38,148 nucleotides of DNA. Origin: a virus. The notes under the pieces are model-generated. The model made no database searches and was not told where the DNA came from. It worked only from the letters and a program-made list of their open reading frames with translations. The DNA lies in the IMG/VR virus record IMGVR_UViG_3300021503_000002, positions 1-38,148 of that record, one strand, 5' to 3'. The position numbers were made by a program, and so were the translations under genes. Positions 2-10,398 of the stretch are shown in pieces (the stretch's first letter is position 1; every line of letters starts with the position of its first letter).

Positions 2-85
2 GGTCTTTCTAAAGAAGAGATTCTATCTTCTTTTCCTGAAGATAGAAGAGAAAAGATAAAAGAATTTCTTGAAAATTGTTGTTGA
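2..85 (+). CDS. 3' end of a truncated gene, possibly DUF433/HTH-like
   Basis: An open frame enters from the left edge and stops at TGA 83-85. It gives 27 residues beginning GLSKEEILSSFP and ending ENCC. The GLS-EEI-xxFP pattern followed by an amphipathic helix resembles the C-terminal helix-turn-helix tail of DUF433-type antitoxin-like proteins, but this is a weak resemblance over few residues. No start is visible because the gene is cut. The stop codon overlaps the -35 box of the promoter behind it, so it would be a separate transcription unit. It could also be fortuitous open frame. Confidence 0.35.
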   Translation, partial: GLSKEEILSSFPEDRREKIKEFLENCC

Positions 86-110
86 CAACTTCGTGATTGT
101 ATGTTATACA
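82..110 (+). promoter_or_regulatory. sigma70-type promoter with extended -10
   Basis: A perfect -35 TTGACA (82-87), a 17-bp spacer and a -10 TATACA (105-110) preceded by TG at 102-103, which makes an extended -10. The predicted start of transcription is about 117-118, exactly at the ATG of the regulator gene (118). The -35 lies inside a small palindrome, GTTGACAAC (81-89), and a second palindrome, ATGATCAT, covers 112-119; either could be an operator for the regulator it drives. This is the best bacterial promoter I can see in the window and probably starts the early operon. Confidence 0.75.
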
Positions 111-117
111 TATGATC

Positions 118-294
118 ATGCGGTCACCAAAGGAACACTTACATATTTTAGTCTCGCAAGAAACTAAGAGTCTCTTAAGACTAAAGGCGGCTGTAACAGG
201 CATCTCTATGAGTTCTCTTATAGAGAATGCCATAAAATCTTATATAGAGAAAGGAGAAACATATGGCAAAGAGGAAATTGGAAAAAGAGATTGA
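118..294 (+). CDS. ribbon-helix-helix (CopG/Arc-like) DNA-binding protein
   Basis: A 58-residue protein with the layout of a ribbon-helix-helix repressor: a short strand (HLHILVS), helix A (QETKSLLRLKAAVTG), a turn with SMSS, and helix B (LIENAIKSYIEK), then a charged tail. Such proteins bind DNA as dimers through the paired strands and often repress their own promoter. ATG 118 coincides with the predicted transcription start and no Shine-Dalgarno precedes it, so the mRNA may be leaderless. ATG 112 and TTG 97 are in frame, but 97 lies inside the promoter. The end overlaps the next gene by 32 bp. Likely an early regulator; its targets are unknown. Confidence 0.7.
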   Translation: MRSPKEHLHILVSQETKSLLRLKAAVTGISMSSLIENAIKSYIEKGETYGKEEIGKRD

Positions 295-619
295 TGGTAA
301 GATTGTAAAGGTTAAAGAGTTAGAGACTGGTGAAACCAGGGAATATGACTTCTCAAGCCTGCCTGCAGACATCCAGGAAAAATTCGGCCCCTTTGGCCTT
401 GCCCACAAGATAGGCGACGCTGCTGCTGGGAAGAGTGGCAACGTCGCTTTGGAGGCTATGGATAAGGTCTGGAAGGGCCTCATGGCTGGCAACTGGGCAG
501 TCAGAGCGCCAGCGGCTCCGAAGGTCACCAAGAAGCAGCTCTTGGAGAATCTGGAAAAGCTCTCTCCAAAGGAGCAGAATGTGGCCAGGGGACTCTTGGA
601 AAAGCTGGGGATTATTTAA
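263..619 (+). CDS. conserved phage hypothetical protein (118 aa)
   Basis: Starts at ATG 263, seven bases after a strong AAAGGAG inside the end of the regulator gene, so the two are translationally coupled. The N-terminal 25 residues look like a small beta unit (DGKIVKVKELETGETREYDF), followed by SSLPADIQEKFGPFGLAHKIGDAAAG and two or three helices that end at LLEKLGII. The GLAHKIGDAAAG stretch is of a kind I associate with small early proteins of many phages, but no function is known to me. G+C is visibly higher in its middle third than in its neighbours. No membrane segment or catalytic motif is seen. Confidence 0.75.
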   Translation: MAKRKLEKEIDGKIVKVKELETGETREYDFSSLPADIQEKFGPFGLAHKIGDAAAGKSGNVALEAMDKVWKGLMAGNWAVRAPAAPKVTKKQLLENLEKLSPKEQNVARGLLEKLGII

Positions 620-630
620 TAACTTTAACT

Positions 631-730
631 GGCTGGGTAAGCCACGGGCCGCCTCTTAGTCAGGCATTGATATAGCTTAGATTTGAGATCTGCCACCCTC
701 CATATCTAAGTCTATCTGGCTTATCCAGCC
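631..730 (+). ncRNA. structured leader RNA, predicted three-way junction
   Basis: The gap between genes folds into a closed structure. P1 is a continuous 14-bp helix (631-644 with 717-730, one G-U pair). P2 is a 4-bp hairpin (651-654 with 662-665). P3 is an 8-bp helix (675-682 with 704-711) topped by GAG/CUC (685-687 with 698-700). The ribosome site AAGGAG (742-747) and start codon of the nuclease gene follow directly. This is the layout of a cis-regulatory RNA, or of a small RNA. I could not match it to purine, preQ1, THF or hammerhead consensus elements. There is no U-run, so it is not a simple terminator. Confidence 0.55.
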
Positions 731-752
731 ATTTCTATGTCAAGGAGATAAA

Positions 753-1739
753 ATGATAGAGCTTGACAACACCTATCGAAGTGCGTTTGCGTCCTGCAAG
801 CGCAAATATTATCTGTCGAGAGTATTAAGCCTTACACCTACACAGGGATCCTGTGCCATCAGGTATGGCTCAGCCTTTCATGCCCTCTTAGAGGGCTATT
901 ATTCTTGGATAAAAGAGAAAGGTTGGGACCAAAGGGAAGAGGCTATTAAACGGGCTTTCTCCTTTGGAGAGGCTGTTTGGAAGAATGAAAGCAGCAAGAA
1001 GTCTTTTCCAGAGGATGACTACCGCTCCCTTCAAAATGCCTTTGAGGCTTTTGTAGCTTACTGTACAGAATATTCCTTCGACAAGGATATTCTTGAGGTA
1101 GTAGAAACTGAAAGAGCCTTCAAGATAAAGATGGAAATCTCCTCTGAAGAAGAAAAGAGATTTCCGTTGCTCAAGCAGGAAGAAATTTACTTCACCGGTA
1201 TTCTTGATATGCAAGTAAGGATGTCAGGTCTCCCCTATATCATGGAGCACAAGACTACATCACAGAACTTGTCTATTCAGGTCGGAAGACTGCACAGGTC
1301 CCCTCAAATCTTAGGGTATACCTACGCAGGCAAGGAGATTCCTCAGCTAAAGGCTATAGGCTGCATAGTTAACCTCCACCAGATATCTTCCAGAAGAAAG
1401 AACGATGGAACCTGGGGGAAGCTGAATATTAGCTTTCAAAGGTCTCCAGAGATCTTTTCTGATAGAGATCTTAGGTTATGGAGAGAAAGTTTTCTGTCTA
1501 CTTGCAATGAGATTCTCTCATGTCAGGAGACCAACAACTGGCCAATGCAGTTTGATAATTGTTATTCCTTTGGAAGGTGCAGGTATTGTGATCTCTGTGA
1601 AAGAAATATTTCTCTTAAGGAAATAACAGAGGATGTTAGTCAAGACATCCTTCCAGAAGGATACATAAAGGATAGGACTAACATCTTTGAGATAAGCACC
1701 TCAGGCCTTATCAAGGAGGTTAACAATGCCGTCAGCTAA
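753..1739 (+). CDS. PD-(D/E)XK nuclease, Cas4/RecB-like with Fe-S cysteines
   Basis: A 328-aa exonuclease-like protein. The catalytic core is visible as GILD (D152) and, 13 residues later, EHKTT (E165, K167), the D...ExK signature of the PD-(D/E)XK fold. A lone cysteine near the N-terminus (C15, in ASCKRKYYLSR) and a C-terminal cluster (C270, C276, C279, C282) match the split cysteine arrangement that holds a 4Fe-4S cluster in Cas4 and AddB. In phages such enzymes resect DNA ends for recombination-dependent replication. It lies directly before a RecA-like ATPase and an SSB-like protein and overlaps the ATPase gene by 14 bp, which supports one recombination unit. Start ATG 753 follows AAGGAG. 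Confidence 0.85.
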   Translation: MIELDNTYRSAFASCKRKYYLSRVLSLTPTQGSCAIRYGSAFHALLEGYYSWIKEKGWDQREEAIKRAFSFGEAVWKNESSKKSFPEDDYRSLQNAFEAFVAYCTEYSFDKDILEVVETERAFKIKMEISSEEEKRFPLLKQEEIYFTGILDMQVRMSGLPYIMEHKTTSQNLSIQVGRLHRSPQILGYTYAGKEIPQLKAIGCIVNLHQISSRRKNDGTWGKLNISFQRSPEIFSDRDLRLWRESFLSTCNEILSCQETNNWPMQFDNCYSFGRCRYCDLCERNISLKEITEDVSQDILPEGYIKDRTNIFEISTSGLIKEVNNAVS

Positions 1740-2454
1740 GAATGTCAGCCCAGAAACAGAGTTTTTCAAAGCTATGGTGGTTGGATCTTACGGAACTGGA
1801 AAGTCCATCTTTGCAGCCTCTTGTCCAACTCCAGGCTTTGTATTTGACTTTGACGAAGGAATTATCTCTTATAGAGGCAAAGACTTCGACTATGAACAAT
1901 ACTCCAGGGACTGGAAAGGCTGGGTTAAGTTTGAGAAGGATCTTCTTAACCTTATCAAGGATACAGAAGGAGGAAAATATAGGACTGTTATTGTAGATTC
2001 GACTTCCACAATGACAGACCTTGCAATGGAAAGAGCCCTGGTTCTTGATCCAAAGAGAAGTGCCACAGGTGGGCCAGTTTGGAATGTTCACTATATGATG
2101 GTAAGGCACATGATGGAAGGCAAATTGAGACAAATAGTAGGCCTTCCTTGTAATGTTATTGTCATTTCTCATATAGATATTGCAAGAGATGAAGACACTG
2201 GTGCTATAGTGGATATAACGCCTCTGTTGACAGGCCAGCTAAGGGAAAAGATCCCTGGCCTTTTTCAAGAGGTCTATTATGCCACTACCAAGAGAACGGG
2301 TCAGAAAACAGAGTGGCTCCTCCAAACTGTTCCAATTGGCTTTAAGAAAGCCAGATCAAGGCTATCTGGAAAAGATCATTTCTTACCAGATTTTATACCA
2401 AATGATTATAACGAAGTAATGAAATATTTGAGAAAAAGAAACAAGAAAAAATAA
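1726..2454 (+). CDS. Sak4-like RecA-fold ATPase (AAA_24 type)
   Basis: 242 aa with Walker A GSYGTGKS (residues 20-27) and Walker B TVIVDS (D91), plus a later sensor-like strand CNVIVISHID. Length and motif order fit the phage Sak4 single-strand annealing/RecA-like family, whose members bind ssDNA and work with the phage SSB. It overlaps the nuclease gene by 14 bp and sits 24 bp before the SSB-like gene, so end resection, annealing and ssDNA protection are encoded side by side. The C-terminus is strongly basic (RKRNKKK). Alternatives within the P-loop class cannot be excluded, but the context makes recombination the best reading. Confidence 0.85.
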   Translation: MPSAKNVSPETEFFKAMVVGSYGTGKSIFAASCPTPGFVFDFDEGIISYRGKDFDYEQYSRDWKGWVKFEKDLLNLIKDTEGGKYRTVIVDSTSTMTDLAMERALVLDPKRSATGGPVWNVHYMMVRHMMEGKLRQIVGLPCNVIVISHIDIARDEDTGAIVDITPLLTGQLREKIPGLFQEVYYATTKRTGQKTEWLLQTVPIGFKKARSRLSGKDHFLPDFIPNDYNEVMKYLRKRNKKK

Positions 2455-2478: not shown

Positions 2479-2997
2479 ATGGCAAAGAAAAAAGTGCAAG
2501 AAGAAGAAATTCAAGAACAGGCTTATTATCCTGACGGTGTAGATGACTCTTTTGGAATCTCCGAGGACTTTAACATAGATGATGAATATAAGCCGGCTCC
2601 GTTGATTCCAGCTGGAGTCTATCACAGCTATGTTACTGACGTAGCCTTCAATGCAGCTGACCAGACTCTTGTCTGGACCTTCACTCTCAATGGAAATGGA
2701 GGTGTAATGTCGGACGGAGAAACTGCTATTGATGGAAGCCAGATAACCTATAGAAACTGGCTCCCAAAGCCTGGAGACGAAAGTGAACTGACCAAGAAGG
2801 GGAACATGACGAAGCGCCAGGCGAAGATCAACATGCTCCATGACTTTGCTAAGGTCATGGGCATAAATCTCTCTACTCCTGCCGCCATTGCAGAAGGCAT
2901 TGCGAATGCCTCTTGGATAGGAATTGAGAAGGATCTCAAGATTGGCGTCAGAACCTATGAAGGAAGGAACTTTAACGATATAGAGAGAATAATTTAA
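2479..2997 (+). CDS. single-stranded DNA-binding-like protein (DUF669 type)
   Basis: 172 aa. An acidic N-terminal tail (KKKVQEEEIQEQ...) is followed by a beta-rich part beginning PAPLIPAGVYHSYVTDV, the usual opening of DUF669-like OB-fold SSBs of phages, then a helical C-terminal part and the final pattern GVRTYEGRNFNDIERI. It should coat ssDNA during replication and recombination. It follows the Sak4-like ATPase, the usual partner. ATG 2479 is preceded by AAAAGGAGAAAG. The family call rests on layout and neighbours rather than on an invariant motif. Confidence 0.75.
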   Translation: MAKKKVQEEEIQEQAYYPDGVDDSFGISEDFNIDDEYKPAPLIPAGVYHSYVTDVAFNAADQTLVWTFTLNGNGGVMSDGETAIDGSQITYRNWLPKPGDESELTKKGNMTKRQAKINMLHDFAKVMGINLSTPAAIAEGIANASWIGIEKDLKIGVRTYEGRNFNDIERII

Positions 2998-3442: not shown

Positions 3443-3454
3443 TTGAACCTTCTT
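3428..3454 (+). repeat. intergenic palindrome, copy 1 of 4 (stop codon in loop)
   Basis: Predicted hairpin: GAGAA (3428-3432) pairs with TTCTT (3450-3454) and TTCAA (3435-3439) with TTGAA (3443-3447), separated by a 2x2 internal loop. The loop TAA (3440-3442) is the stop codon of the zinc-ribbon gene. The methyltransferase ATG follows four bases after the stem. It shares the core CAATAATTGAAYCTTCTTA with copies at 12.6 and 18.5 kb. There is no U-run, so it is not an ordinary terminator. Confidence 0.6.
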
Positions 3455-3457
3455 AAA

Positions 3458-4759
3458 ATGGACGAATCTATTATCTTTGAAAAAGACCCCAAGGAAATAA
3501 AGATAGCTGAGGATCTCCCAAGATATAGAAAGGAGATCCCCAAGCTAAAGGAGCTATTAGCCTCAATAGAGAGGTTTGGCCAGCTTGTCCCTATCGTCAT
3601 AACAAAGGACAATGTCCTTGTAGCTGGTGGTAGAAGGCTGGCAGCATGTCTCTTAGGAAACATAAAAGTAAAATGTATTTATAAAGATACAGCCAGCCCG
3701 CTTCAAATGAGGGAGATAGAGCTTGAAGAGAATCTTCAAAGAGAAGATCTATCTCCTGCGGAGGAGGCTGAAGCCATTGCTGACCTTCATAGAATAAGAC
3801 AAAAGCTTTATGGCGAAGCCCAGCCAGGAAGAAAAGGAGGCTGGCGCTTGAAAGATACAGCTGCTTCCATAGGAAAAACTCCTGGCTCAGTGGTAGAGGC
3901 TATAAAGATAACAGAAATACTAAAGGATTTTCCTGAGCTAAGAACACTTCCTACAAAGAAAGCAATTAAAAAAGCTGTAAGAGGAGCCGAGGCCGTTGTA
4001 ACAAAACTTGCGGCTCTTGAGGAAGCCCAAAAGGTTTTGGAAAAGCAACAAAGCTGTGATATTTGTCAGGCAAATGCAGTAGAATACTTAAAAAATATAA
4101 AAGATAACTCTATAGATATAATCATAACAGATCCTCCTTATGGTATAAACATAGATGAAGTTCAACAACAGATAGGAGGAAAGCCAGGCGGTCAGTCCCT
4201 TACTGGCCATAAGTTTTCTGATGATCCAGAGGCCAGTTTGTCCTTATATAAGATCTTGGCAAAAGAGTCTTTTAGGATATCCAAGCCAACATCCCATGCT
4301 TGGATTTTTGTATGCCCTGAACACTTTTCTACCATAAGAAAATTTTTCGTGGATGGCAACTGGGACGCTCATATAAGACCTATAATATGGATAAAAAGAG
4401 CTATAGGCCAGTGTAACGTTCCCAAGAACTGGCCATCAGCCTGCTATGAAATGATTCTCTATTGTCGAAGAGTAGATTCCGTTATCATTGAACAAGGAAA
4501 GCCTGACTGGATTCAGTGTGATCCTGTTTTGTCAGATAAAAGGCTCCATCCTACAGAGAAGCCTGTTAAGTTAATAAAAGAACTTTTGCAAAGAGTAGCC
4601 TATCCTGGCCAAGTTCTATTAGACCCTTTTATTGGAAGCGGTGCGGTAATAGAAGCTGGATTACAACATAATCTTGTATGCAAAGGCTGTGAAATAGATA
4701 AAGCTATTTATGCAACAGCTGTTGATAGGTTATCAAAGATTGAAAATGAAGCCAACTAA
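3458..4759 (+). CDS. ParB/Spo0J N-terminal domain fused to a DNA methyltransferase
   Basis: 433 aa. Residues about 12-110 form a ParB-like nuclease/CTPase-type N-terminal domain: LKELLASIERFGQLVPIVI, then LVAGGRRLAAC in place of the usual GERRxxA, then EIELEENLQREDLSPAEEAEAI. After a helical linker comes an amino-methyltransferase with motif IV DPPY (225-228) and the AdoMet motif DPFIGSG (389-395) near the end, i.e. beta-class order. It probably methylates adenine or cytosine N4 in DNA, perhaps protecting phage DNA; no restriction partner is visible. ATG 3458 is chosen because the in-frame TTG 3443 lies inside the palindrome. It overlaps the next gene by 14 bp. Confidence 0.85.
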   Translation: MDESIIFEKDPKEIKIAEDLPRYRKEIPKLKELLASIERFGQLVPIVITKDNVLVAGGRRLAACLLGNIKVKCIYKDTASPLQMREIELEENLQREDLSPAEEAEAIADLHRIRQKLYGEAQPGRKGGWRLKDTAASIGKTPGSVVEAIKITEILKDFPELRTLPTKKAIKKAVRGAEAVVTKLAALEEAQKVLEKQQSCDICQANAVEYLKNIKDNSIDIIITDPPYGINIDEVQQQIGGKPGGQSLTGHKFSDDPEASLSLYKILAKESFRISKPTSHAWIFVCPEHFSTIRKFFVDGNWDAHIRPIIWIKRAIGQCNVPKNWPSACYEMILYCRRVDSVIIEQGKPDWIQCDPVLSDKRLHPTEKPVKLIKELLQRVAYPGQVLLDPFIGSGAVIEAGLQHNLVCKGCEIDKAIYATAVDRLSKIENEAN

Positions 4760-5120
4760 GGTATACTTAGCATCTCCTTATACACATGAACAATATCTTG
4801 TAAGAGCCCTCAGAGCAAGGGCAGCCGCCAGAGCTGCAGGAGTTCTTCTAAAAGCAGGATATCTTGTTTTCTCTCCTATAGTACATGGTCACTTGATTGC
4901 TATGTACTCCGAGTTTCCTGTTCCTATAGATTATTCTTATTGGGAGCCTCTAAATAAAGAATTTATAATATGGTCAGACACTTTATATATCCTTACTTTA
5001 GATGGATGGGAAGACTCTATAGGAATAGAAAGAGAGATAGAGATAGCCAGAACTTACAATAAGGAAATATATCTATGGCAAGGTACATTGGAACAGTTGG
5101 CCCACCTACAGCCAATATAA
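4746..5120 (+). CDS. DUF1937/DUF4406-like protein (nucleoside deoxyribosyltransferase fold)
   Basis: 124 aa beginning KVYLASPYTH, with RARAAARAAGVLLKAGYLVFSPIVHGHLI in the middle and ILTLDGWEDSIGIEREIEIA near the end. This set (ASPY, FSPI-H, GW-S-G---E) is the signature of the DUF1937/DUF4406 branch of the nucleoside 2-deoxyribosyltransferase-like fold, including the glutamate in the last motif that acts as nucleophile in relatives. It may act on nucleotides or sense ADP-ribose-like compounds; the real substrate is unknown. It overlaps the methyltransferase by 14 bp and the polymerase gene by 46 bp. ATG 4746 is preferred over upstream in-frame codons that lie deep in the methyltransferase. 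Confidence 0.75.
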   Translation: MKPTKVYLASPYTHEQYLVRALRARAAARAAGVLLKAGYLVFSPIVHGHLIAMYSEFPVPIDYSYWEPLNKEFIIWSDTLYILTLDGWEDSIGIEREIEIARTYNKEIYLWQGTLEQLAHLQPI

Positions 5121-7402
5121 TGCTTGTTGGCGAGGCTCCTGGGGCTGAGGAAGATCGAACAGGTCTTCCCTTTAAAGGCCCTGCAGGAAAGACCTTAAAT
5201 ATCCTATTGGCTAAAGCTGGTATTATAAGAGAAGAATGTCTTATAGCCAACGTGGCAAGGGAGAGGCCTCCCAAGAACAATATAGGATATTACTTCCATG
5301 ATAAAAAGCAAACAATTCCCAAACCAGAACTATCCGCCTGGATTGAAGAACTAAAGAGAGATATAGAAACCTATAAGCCCAATGTTGTAGTAGCCCTTGG
5401 AGCGACAGCCCTTTGGGCCTTAACAGGTATAAGAGGAATAAAGTCCGCCAGGGGCTATATCATGGAGTCTACTCTTGTTCCTGGACAAAAAGTCCTTCCT
5501 ACCTATCATCCTCAGGCTGTTGGATATTCTTGGAATCTATCCTATATAGCAGTTCTTGATCTAAAAAAGGCTCTCTACCACAGTGCTTTTCCAGGGATAA
5601 GAAAGGATAACAGAACCTTTGACATAGATCCTTCGAAAGATGCTTTTATAGATATATGTAAGAATGTATTTCTAAAAGAAAACAAGCCCTTAGCAGTAGA
5701 TATTGAGGCTACTAAAGCTCATATAAATAGAATAGGCTTTTCTAATAGTCCTTATTGGGGAGTATCCTTAGGAATCTTAGATGGTTCTTATCCAAGATTT
5801 CCTGAACGAGACGAATTAGAGATATGGTATTGGATAGCAAAGGTTTTGTCATCTGTTCCCTTAGTTTTCCACAATGCTACTTATGACATAAGCGTTTTAT
5901 GGAAGAGGAATCATATCTACTGCAAAAATATCTATATGGACACAATGATAGCAGCCCATTGTTGCTGGCCAGAATTACCAAGAAGCCTGGACTTTGTGTC
6001 AAGCATTTGCTTAGATGTTCCTATGTGGAAGTTTCTATCTCATGAAGACCCAGGGTTTTACAACGTGCAAGATGCTATTAACACTGCGGCTTTGATAGAG
6101 CCTTTGAAAGATAGGCTAAAAGCCCATCATGAGGAAGAAACCTTCAAAAGAGAAATGTCCTGGATTAAGCCCGCAGCTATGATGCAATTACAAGGAATAG
6201 ATGTTTCTCTTGAAAAAAGAGATAAAATAAGAAAAGATGCCGAAAAAAGGTTAAAAGAAATAGATGCAAAGTTGCTCTCTTTAACTGGAAGGAATGATAT
6301 AAACTATAACAGCCCGGATCAAATAAAGAAACTTTTGTATATAGACTTAGGTCTTCCTCTCCAGTTTAAGAGAAGAAAAAGTATAAGGGAAGACAGAAAA
6401 ATAACCACTGAAGAAAAAGCTTTAAAGAATCTTGCAAGAATGCATGAAGTGCCTGCTTATATAATTAAAAGAAGAAAATGCCAGAAGTTAATATCTACTT
6501 TCTTAGATATAGAAACCTCTCCAGAAGGAAAGATATATACTTCTTATAATATAACAGGCACAGATCTTGGAGGTCGATGGTCTTCAAGCAAGTCCATTAT
6601 AGATCCTTATGGACCAGGAAATCTTCAAAACATACCTAATGCTGCAAGAAAGTTATATACTGTATCAGATGATGAAGTATTATTAGAGGCTGACTATGTT
6701 CAGGCAGAGGCTGTTGTAGTGGCTTATCTAAGCCTTGATATAGCCCTTATGAAGATGTTCCAAGAATCTTTTGGAATGTCTCCATCTGAGAGAAAAAAAG
6801 ACCATGATGTCCATAGATATACAGCATCTATAATGTACGAAGTAGATATAGACGACGTTACTTCTGAACAACGATCTATAGGGAAAACACTAAGGCATGC
6901 CGGAAATTACGCAGCTGGTCCAGGTGTAGTTGCAGATAAGCTAAATATAACCATGCAACAGGCCAAGCCTTTACTTAAAAGATACTTTGACAAAAACCCT
7001 ATGCTTGTTCTATGGCACAAGCGTATACAAGAAGAGCTGAGAAGATCAAGGACCTTGACAAACCTCTTTGGAAGATCACATCTATTTCTTGATAGATGGG
7101 GAGAGGCTCTCTTTAGAAGGGCTTATGCTTATATTCCACAAACAACAGTAGGTGATCTATTAAATTCTTCTCTAAAAGATTTTTATGAAAGATATGGAGA
7201 TAAATATAAAATATATCTTCAACTTCACGACGCAATTTATTTAAGGATACCAAAGAGAGAAGTAGACACTGTTATTCCTTTATTAAGAACCTGTATGATA
7301 AAAGAAATCCCTGTAGGTCAAGAGATTATGAAAATAGATGTAGATTTCAAGATGGGATCTAACTGGGGAGAGATGGAAGAGCTGGATATATCATGGAGAT
7401 AA
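5075..7402 (+). CDS. UDG-like / 3'-5' exonuclease / family A DNA polymerase fusion
   Basis: 775 aa, the replicative polymerase. Residues 1-175 are a uracil-DNA-glycosylase-fold domain of family 4/5 type: GEAPGAEEDRTGLPFKGPAGKTL (19-41) and TYHPQAV (H145). The usual Fe-S cysteines are missing; the NVxxCRPP position reads NVARERPP. The exonuclease has DIE (D209, E211), N267/D271 and Y329xxxD333, so proofreading looks intact. The PolA palm has motif A DYVQAE (D540, E545), motif B R600/K604/H608 with NY 611-612, and motif C HDA (H718, D719), where the common glutamate is alanine. SPO1-like phage polymerases also carry an N-terminal UDG-like domain, so the fusion has precedent. Confidence 0.9.
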   Translation: MARYIGTVGPPTANIMLVGEAPGAEEDRTGLPFKGPAGKTLNILLAKAGIIREECLIANVARERPPKNNIGYYFHDKKQTIPKPELSAWIEELKRDIETYKPNVVVALGATALWALTGIRGIKSARGYIMESTLVPGQKVLPTYHPQAVGYSWNLSYIAVLDLKKALYHSAFPGIRKDNRTFDIDPSKDAFIDICKNVFLKENKPLAVDIEATKAHINRIGFSNSPYWGVSLGILDGSYPRFPERDELEIWYWIAKVLSSVPLVFHNATYDISVLWKRNHIYCKNIYMDTMIAAHCCWPELPRSLDFVSSICLDVPMWKFLSHEDPGFYNVQDAINTAALIEPLKDRLKAHHEEETFKREMSWIKPAAMMQLQGIDVSLEKRDKIRKDAEKRLKEIDAKLLSLTGRNDINYNSPDQIKKLLYIDLGLPLQFKRRKSIREDRKITTEEKALKNLARMHEVPAYIIKRRKCQKLISTFLDIETSPEGKIYTSYNITGTDLGGRWSSSKSIIDPYGPGNLQNIPNAARKLYTVSDDEVLLEADYVQAEAVVVAYLSLDIALMKMFQESFGMSPSERKKDHDVHRYTASIMYEVDIDDVTSEQRSIGKTLRHAGNYAAGPGVVADKLNITMQQAKPLLKRYFDKNPMLVLWHKRIQEELRRSRTLTNLFGRSHLFLDRWGEALFRRAYAYIPQTTVGDLLNSSLKDFYERYGDKYKIYLQLHDAIYLRIPKREVDTVIPLLRTCMIKEIPVGQEIMKIDVDFKMGSNWGEMEELDISWR

Positions 7403-7557
7403 AGAGAGAAAATCAAGAGCACTTTGAATCAAGTTTAGCTCAGCTCATTGGAGCAGCAATGATAGTTGGAGTAGTTCTCCTTGCACCCTTGGCTTTAGTA
7501 TTTCGGATTCTTGACGGAATAACAAAGTTTACCCTTTGGTTGTTTAAGAAGTTATAA
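7393..7557 (+). CDS. small membrane protein (54 aa)
   Basis: ATG 7393 overlaps the last 10 bases of the polymerase gene (ATGGAGATAA). The product has a charged N-terminus (MEIKRENQEHFESS), a long hydrophobic helix (about residues 16-42, LIGAAMIVGVVLLAPLALVF) and a short basic tail ending FKKL. That is a single-span inner-membrane protein with its basic end probably inside the cell. No family is recognised; it could be a superinfection or lysis-related protein, but nothing shows this. It fills the gap before the next gene exactly. Confidence 0.6.
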   Translation: MEIKRENQEHFESSLAQLIGAAMIVGVVLLAPLALVFRILDGITKFTLWLFKKL

Positions 7558-7568
7558 GGAGAATACCT

Positions 7569-9686: not shown

Positions 9687-9701
9687 CTAAGAAAATAAAT
9701 T

Positions 9702-9845
9702 ATGAGAGATGGTCTATACAGAATTAAAAAGTCTTATCTTTGTGCAGGCTTTGTCATCAAAAACAATAAAGTTATTGCCTGCGCACCAATTCTAAGAAAG
9801 AAAATAAATTACTGGAAAACAATTGCTACATGGATTTGTTTATAG
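9702..9845 (+). CDS. conserved phage micro-protein (47 aa, 'CAGF...APILR' type)
   Basis: A 47-residue product from ATG 9702 to TAG 9843-9845. It reads LYRIKKSYLCAGFVIKNNKV, then IACAPILRKKINYW and IATWICL. The CAGF, CAPILR and W motifs identify a very widespread small phage protein of unknown function that gene finders often skip. The ribosome site is weak (TAAGAAAATAAATT). Its last 25 bases are repeated 539 bp downstream, where they are read in another frame. Confidence 0.7.
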   Translation: MRDGLYRIKKSYLCAGFVIKNNKVIACAPILRKKINYWKTIATWICL

Positions 9846-9847
9846 CT
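9823..9847 (+). repeat. 25-bp direct repeat, left copy
   Basis: Identical to 10362-10386. It covers the last codons and stop of the CAGF micro-gene; weaker similarity (TACTG and A-rich bases) extends about 15 bp upstream and the next bases (aagg versus tagg) also agree partly. A likely partial duplication of the 3' end of the micro-gene. Confidence 0.85.
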
Positions 9848-9891
9848 AAGGATATCTGAATTACCACTTTAAAGAAGAGGAAATATAAAAG

Positions 9892-10161: not shown

Positions 10162-10322
10162 ATGGAAGGAAGGCCAAGCAACTTAGAAAAGCAATCTACG
10201 GTGACTTTTCAATTAGGAGCCCTGAATATACCATAGACATAAATGGAACAATTCGCTGTGAAGGGAGAAGGAAGCTTTATAAAGAAGCCAAGAAGGTGTA
10301 TCGGAAGGTGCAAAATGAGTAA
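10158..10322 (+). CDS. conserved basic phage micro-protein (54 aa, 'NGRKAKQLRKAIYGD' type)
   Basis: Starts with GTG 10158, overlapping the stop of the YkgJ-like gene, with GAGAAAGGAGAAATAAG just upstream as ribosome site. The product opens NGRKAKQLRKAIYGDFSIR, continues with YTIDINGTIRCEGRRKLYKEAKK, and is strongly basic. This pattern (RKAK-LRKA-YGD-S---Y ... RR-LY-EAKK) is a recurring small protein of phage accessory regions, possibly nucleic-acid binding. Its short length and GTG start make it easy to miss. It overlaps the next tiny frame by 8 bp. Confidence 0.7.
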   Translation: MNGRKAKQLRKAIYGDFSIRSPEYTIDINGTIRCEGRRKLYKEAKKVYRKVQNE

Positions 10323-10389
10323 GAAGTGGCTATGGAAAATGCAATACTGTAAAGAGAACAGTTGCTACATGGATTTGTTTATAGCTTAG
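10315..10389 (+). CDS. 24-residue peptide frame, possibly remnant of a duplicated gene end
   Basis: ATG 10315 to TAG 10387-10389, reading MSKKWLWKMQYCKENSCYMD and ending LFIA. Its last third is the second copy of the 25-bp repeat that ends the CAGF micro-gene, here in a different frame. It overlaps the basic micro-protein by 8 bp. It is either a tiny peptide gene or, more probably, a decayed duplicate of the micro-gene's 3' end. Confidence 0.3.
   Translation: MSKKWLWKMQYCKENSCYMDLFIA
10362..10386 (+). repeat. 25-bp direct repeat, right copy
   Basis: Identical to 9823-9847. The two copies flank the YkgJ-like gene and the basic micro-gene, so recombination between them would delete exactly those two genes. 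Confidence 0.85.
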
Positions 10390-10398
10390 GAGAAGCGT

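Follow-up and report, generated by a model that had tools for sequence, protein, structure and literature searches.

A terminator-like RNA hairpin at a conserved position between dufA and the recombination genes of an uncultured phage group

The locus described here raises the question of what role is played by a highly stable RNA fold in the gap that separates an early phage gene from the recombination genes behind it. It lies in a virus record of 38,148 bases, which was analysed as a whole and is termed the window below. The initial annotation, based on this single sequence, had described the fold as a three-way junction and had offered three roles for it: a new cis-regulator of the recombination cassette, a small RNA derived from processing of the leader, or a decoy RNA directed against host defence. 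The early part of the window comprises the following features.

82 to 110, plus strand: promoter-like site heading the RHH-dufA unit, TTGACA-17 nt-TATACA, its -10 preceded by TG (extended -10)
97 to 294, plus strand: Arc/CopG-like ribbon-helix-helix (RHH) gene (RHH_1, E 7e-4, narrowly missing the cut-off; Arc-like repressor PHROG, E 8e-6)
263 to 619, plus strand: dufA (name coined here), encoding a 118-aa protein and conserved directly before the nuclease-AAA-SSB block
630 to 644, plus strand: 5' arm of the closing helix, from folding
651 to 665, plus strand: short inner hairpin of 4 bp, weakly supported (pair probability about 0.55)
669 to 716, plus strand: inner arm, consisting of helix 669-672/713-716 and hairpin 675-711, from pair probabilities
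717 to 731, plus strand: 3' arm of the closing helix, which alone can form a 5-bp hairpin TGGCT/AGCCA
732 to 739, plus strand: U-rich tail UUUCUAUG, an interrupted run with 5 U of 8, from the sequence
742 to 747, plus strand: ribosome-binding site AAGGAG of the nuclease gene, from the sequence
753 to 1739, plus strand: PD-(D/E)XK (Cas4/RecB-like) exonuclease gene (PDDEXK_1, E 2.5e-18; exonuclease PHROG, E 2e-18)
1726 to 2454, plus strand: gene of a Sak4-like AAA ATPase/ssDNA annealing protein, from a profile search
2479 to 2997, plus strand: gene of a probable single-strand-binding protein (SSB), from a weak profile match (E 0.03) and conserved synteny

Between the stop codon of dufA (617-619) and the ATG of the nuclease gene (753) the window holds a noncoding gap of 133 nt (620-752). 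Folding of this gap bore out the coordinates given before for a closing helix of 14 pairs (631-644/717-730) that encloses two hairpins; the helix contains one G-U pair (637-724) and is extended to 15 pairs by U-A 630-731, so that 8 of the 15 pairs in 630-644/717-731 are G-C, and the pair probability amounts to about 1.0 for 631-643, i.e. the inner 13 pairs. Regarding the two hairpins, 675-711 has 8 bp plus a 3-bp extension and belongs to the stronger arm (669-716), while 651-665 is weak; the helix 669-672/713-716, of 4 bp, is stacked onto the closing helix. The minimum free energy of the gap is -41.8 kcal/mol, as opposed to a mean of about -28 for shuffled sequences (z = -4.4 for 116 nt and -4.1 for 123 nt), and none of 200 shuffles was as stable in either case. 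With 72 nt enclosed, the closing helix falls outside the short-loop definition of an intrinsic terminator, and a terminator scan with loops of 3-8 missed it, its one hit being the 5-bp hairpin formed by the 3' arm. A short loop is typical of intrinsic terminators and is used by predictors, without being strictly required.

The remainder of the early region provides the context of this fold. The promoter-like site at 82-110 was equalled in score by 3 of 58 control stretches, and a consensus scan of the plus strand listed no further promoter-like site between 110 and 753. The RHH gene more probably starts at one of two in-frame ATGs, 112 or 118; because the -10 element ends at 110, transcription may begin at or near ATG 118 (105-118), yielding a possibly leaderless RHH mRNA. 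Around the ribosome-binding site and start codon of the nuclease gene (738-771), TGTCAAG and CTTGACA could form a 7-bp hairpin, possibly by chance. Further downstream, 3443-4759 encodes an N6_N4_Mtase DNA methyltransferase domain located C-terminally to a weak ParB_N-like N-terminus, and 5075-7402 is a single ORF of 775 aa combining a uracil-DNA glycosylase domain (residues 8-154) with a family A DNA polymerase domain (383-766), a type of fusion known from SPO1-like phages. The early operon had also been said to contain no long gap other than that between dufA and the nuclease gene. On a list of ORFs of at least 60 aa this does not hold, since gaps of 166, 205 and 237 nt occur at 7403-7568, 9687-9891 and 10162-10398; the claim is nevertheless reasonable once small ORFs are allowed, because these three gaps contain, as read by eye, small ORFs of approximately 48-54 codons. 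The latter two gaps, which also carry their ORFs of about 50 codons, share the sequence TTGCTACATGGATTTGTTTATAGCT.

Protein searches in IMG/VR retrieved about 40 contigs featuring the order dufA, PD-(D/E)XK nuclease, Sak4-like AAA and SSB. The closest relative (L001/L006; nuclease 92%, AAA 97%) ends inside the nuclease gene and does not cover the gap, and no close IMG/VR relative includes the window's own gap. The homology search among environmental phages that the initial annotation had called for thus recovered the gene order in about 40 contigs. In the INPHARED phages, DNA similarity to the window was confined to chance pieces and tblastn with the nuclease and dufA gave no match, nor did the nuclease alignment match GTDB genome contigs. 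Upstream of dufA, most relatives possess promoter-like TTGACA-17-TGnTATAAT sites, and in many of them no control stretch scored as high.

To compare homologous positions, the 120-140 nt following the dufA stop codon were extracted from 34 distinguishable loci, and the best helix within 120 nt of the stop was ranked against 100 random windows of the same contig. A significant long helix, i.e. one matched by at most 2% of the random windows, was present in 28 of the 34 regions, 19 of which were matched by none, with a median helix score of 32.75 compared with 18 for the controls. In agreement, the folding-energy profile averaged across relatives reaches its minimum in the first 70 nt behind the dufA stop (0 to +70); this dip constitutes a specific feature because the GC content is lower there, the stability of the dufA coding region stemming from its higher GC content. 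The helices measure 11-21 pairs in most relatives and start 10 nt behind the stop codon in the window and at a median of 17 nt in relatives.

Conservation is restricted to pairing and place. According to blastn, most post-dufA gaps have sequences unrelated to one another, the exceptions being a few sister pairs and a small palindrome that several gaps have in common. No other post-dufA gap (about 30 relatives) significantly matched that of the window, and the hairpins are not alignable across groups of relatives. Loop sizes vary from 3 to 72 nt, some loops being multi-branched, and lie at 3-26 nt in most relatives; an interior branched as in the window was found in a minority only, e.g. L038 and L050, most relatives having a plain hairpin. 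Four loci (L019, L030, L037, L047) resemble textbook intrinsic terminators. The initial annotation had named homologous gaps devoid of complementary segments as evidence against its proposal, and such cases were partly encountered. One clade, comprising L007-L014, L016 and L056, has neither gap nor hairpin, its dufA stop overlapping the start of the nuclease gene, and in six gaps (L041, L044, L049, L067, L082, L232) the first 120 nt yielded no significant helix, though in L049 a terminator-like GCCGGA...TCCGGC-ACTTTTTC is located slightly beyond that range.

The small palindrome is an element of its own. It is a dispersed near-palindrome, AGAAAnGTCAAnnnTTGACnTTTTnnCTKA, often intergenic, present in both orientations and often in several copies per contig. 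Its sites include L015:3993, L027:5924, L031:5258, L067:386/4011/6042/6230 and about 80 more in L123-L200. It was counted in 101 stretches of viral contigs, many of them on dufA-nuclease-AAA contigs, and is absent from the window. In L015, L029, L038 and others it adjoins the post-dufA hairpin, and it is possibly an operator-like or stoperator-like site.

Three properties of the helices point to an RNA that would act on the transcript itself. Firstly, the bases 3' of the helix are enriched in U, with frequencies of 0.54-0.63 at positions 1-4 and 0.42 at position 5 before background (0.26) is reached from position 6, and at least 5 U among the 8 bases after the helix occur in 12 of 28 loci compared with 12.6% of random positions. 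This enrichment is not universal, as little U follows the long helices of L015, L017, L043 and L238. Secondly, when G-U and A-C were allowed equally in the helices, they were counted 64:23 (p about 1e-5; a few of the 28 loci are related, so that the counts are not fully independent), whereas control helices gave 1092:1107; since a G-U pair is tolerated only in the sense RNA, it is the sense transcript that is under selection. Thirdly, sister pairs display double compensatory changes, namely G-C to A-U and G-C to C-G in L026/L034 and A-U to G-C in L093/L095.

Taken together, these data describe a layout of a promoter, one or two genes, a terminator-like hairpin and the recombination cassette beyond. 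Its most probable explanation is that the intercistronic hairpin reduces the transcription that passes from the RHH-dufA promoter into the nuclease-Sak4-SSB cassette and thereby gives an excess of dufA mRNA. As RNA polymerase goes past the dufA stop codon, the 5' arm would pair with the 3' arm while the interior forms hairpins of its own, for which a fixed sequence is not required. On reaching the U-rich tail, a fraction of the transcripts would end just upstream of the ribosome-binding site of the nuclease gene, and the remaining ones would read through into the cassette. Such read-through would be needed, because the consensus scan lists no other plus-strand promoter-like site ahead of 753, and leaky termination is to be expected because the tail is modest and the loop large. 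Moreover, a closely trailing ribosome could cover the 5' arm, since the helix starts only about 10 nt past the stop codon, and thus increase read-through. In constructs with the lambda terminator tR2, a terminator close behind a stop codon was repressed by the trailing ribosome and recovered beyond about 30 bp (PMC4824070); as the spacing of about 10 nt falls into this repressed range, ribosome-controlled read-through is plausible. Termination, partial read-through, ribosome coupling and the excess of dufA mRNA are all four conclusions that we infer from comparing sequences. Several observations speak against a terminator: the U-tract of the window is interrupted, with 5 U of 8, the 72 nt enclosed are far above what a classical terminator encloses, and there are the relatives with little U, the gapless clade and the six gaps without a significant helix. 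The best reading is that of an ordinary, fast-turning, terminator-like hairpin, conserved in position and free in sequence, which would exert an ordinary kind of control over gene expression.

The arrangement suggests that DufA is meant to be made in amounts different from those of the adjoining recombination proteins. Its structure model is confident (pLDDT 89.6), and neither a structural match for the predicted model nor a profile match was obtained. The protein features the motifs KxGDAAAGxxG and RAPAAPK as well as a C-terminal LLEKLGI; a similar motif (EKALLKKLGV / EKALMKTLGI) stands at the end of small ORFs of L002 and L017. The GC3 of dufA (0.61) is the top value in the window, and in relatives C-ending codons are slightly commoner in dufA than in the nuclease gene (p 0.03), a codon bias that weakly hints at a higher expression of dufA.

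Mainly because some relatives lack a U-tract, the chief alternative is mRNA processing or 3'-end protection, in which host RNase III cleaves the helix or the helix blocks 3' exonucleases. The RHH-dufA transcript would then be detached from the mRNA downstream of it and persist longer than the latter. We regard it as rather unlikely, even though much of the evidence would suit it: the intercistronic position is conserved with free sequence turnover, the sense-strand helices have 11-21 pairs in most cases, such a mechanism copes with a loop as large and branched as that of the window, and the low-U loci L015, L017, L043 and L238 pose no difficulty, as a U-tract is not required. For RNase III in particular, the 15-pair closing helix with its stacked inner helices is a long enough double-stranded intercistronic helix. 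On the other hand, many of the helices are short for RNase III, and processing or protection predicts neither a U enrichment that ends with the fifth base behind the helix nor the presence of textbook terminators in several relatives.

A control of timing rather than mere lowering of the cassette would result from a regulated attenuator, i.e. a terminator/antiterminator switch driven by the ribosome, a phage protein or another ligand. The start of the helix 10 nt (window) or a median of 17 nt (relatives) after the stop lies in or near the ribosome-sensitive range (PMC4824070), and each arm of the window helix can fold on itself (TGGCT-N5-AGCCA), which would provide an alternative local state. 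This self-complementarity may be due to chance, though, and no sensing domain or alternative pairing is conserved across relatives, whose interiors are free, which makes such an attenuator distinctly improbable. Hardly better are the prospects of a regulated switch that has kept its fixed post-dufA place while sequence and branching were almost wholly replaced, and whose read-through is set by dufA translation or by the DufA or RHH protein; if this were true, the first unit of the operon would time the recombination cassette.

A new class of structured RNA, be it a riboswitch, a ribozyme, a small RNA or an anti-host-defence decoy, is very unlikely. The fold is strong and stable, and in keeping with the initial annotation, which had found no fit to familiar consensus elements of riboswitches or ribozymes, Rfam returned no covariance-model match at gathering thresholds for the window and 15 related loci; at E up to 10 the window gave nothing beyond chance-level matches. 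Yet neither sequence nor interior is conserved at the same place in about 30 relatives, and a search of 2.9 million viral contigs for the arm pattern of the window helix revealed no second copy. Of the three roles proposed initially, the cis-acting part of the first is upheld by the position, the sense-strand RNA and the pairing kept across relatives, but a new, specific three-way-junction class is not, as the form seen in most relatives is a simple hairpin that a U-rich tail often follows; nothing speaks for a decoy, and a small RNA from a processed leader is conceivable at best. A DNA-level palindrome, acting as an origin or as an operator pair (two TGGCT-N5-AGCCA sites 87 bp apart), accords with the palindromic nature of both arms and the RHH regulator gene next door, but is disfavoured by the G-U/A-C strand test in relatives and by the sole non-Watson-Crick pair of the window, likewise a G-U on the sense strand, and is thus highly improbable.

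By comparing homologous positions, a striking RNA fold of a single sequence could be explained as one instance of a feature in which pairing and place are kept while sequence and shape are not. A conserved unit of an uncultured phage group also emerges from this comparison; it consists of a promoter-like site, in some cases RHH, dufA, the hairpin, the nuclease, Sak4 and SSB. In the literature on multibranched terminators and intercistronic phage terminators no direct precedent was found, and the nearest likenesses are to three known systems. With intrinsic terminators and attenuators the element shares a self-complementary helix right behind the stop codon, action as sense-strand RNA, free sequence turnover and, for the group as a whole, a U-rich tail, while the copy in the window differs by the two hairpins within its 72 enclosed nt and by its modest U-tract. 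In T7 early mRNA, intercistronic RNase III sites separate the transcripts; those of T7 and its relatives are similarly hairpins located between early cistrons, where they give the mRNAs different fates, but a U enrichment directly after the helix, as found in the phage group described here, is not expected there. The lambda tR2 constructs (PMC4824070) match the window in the distance of about 10 nt from stop codon to helix, the range of ribosome repression, although tR2 is a compact hairpin.
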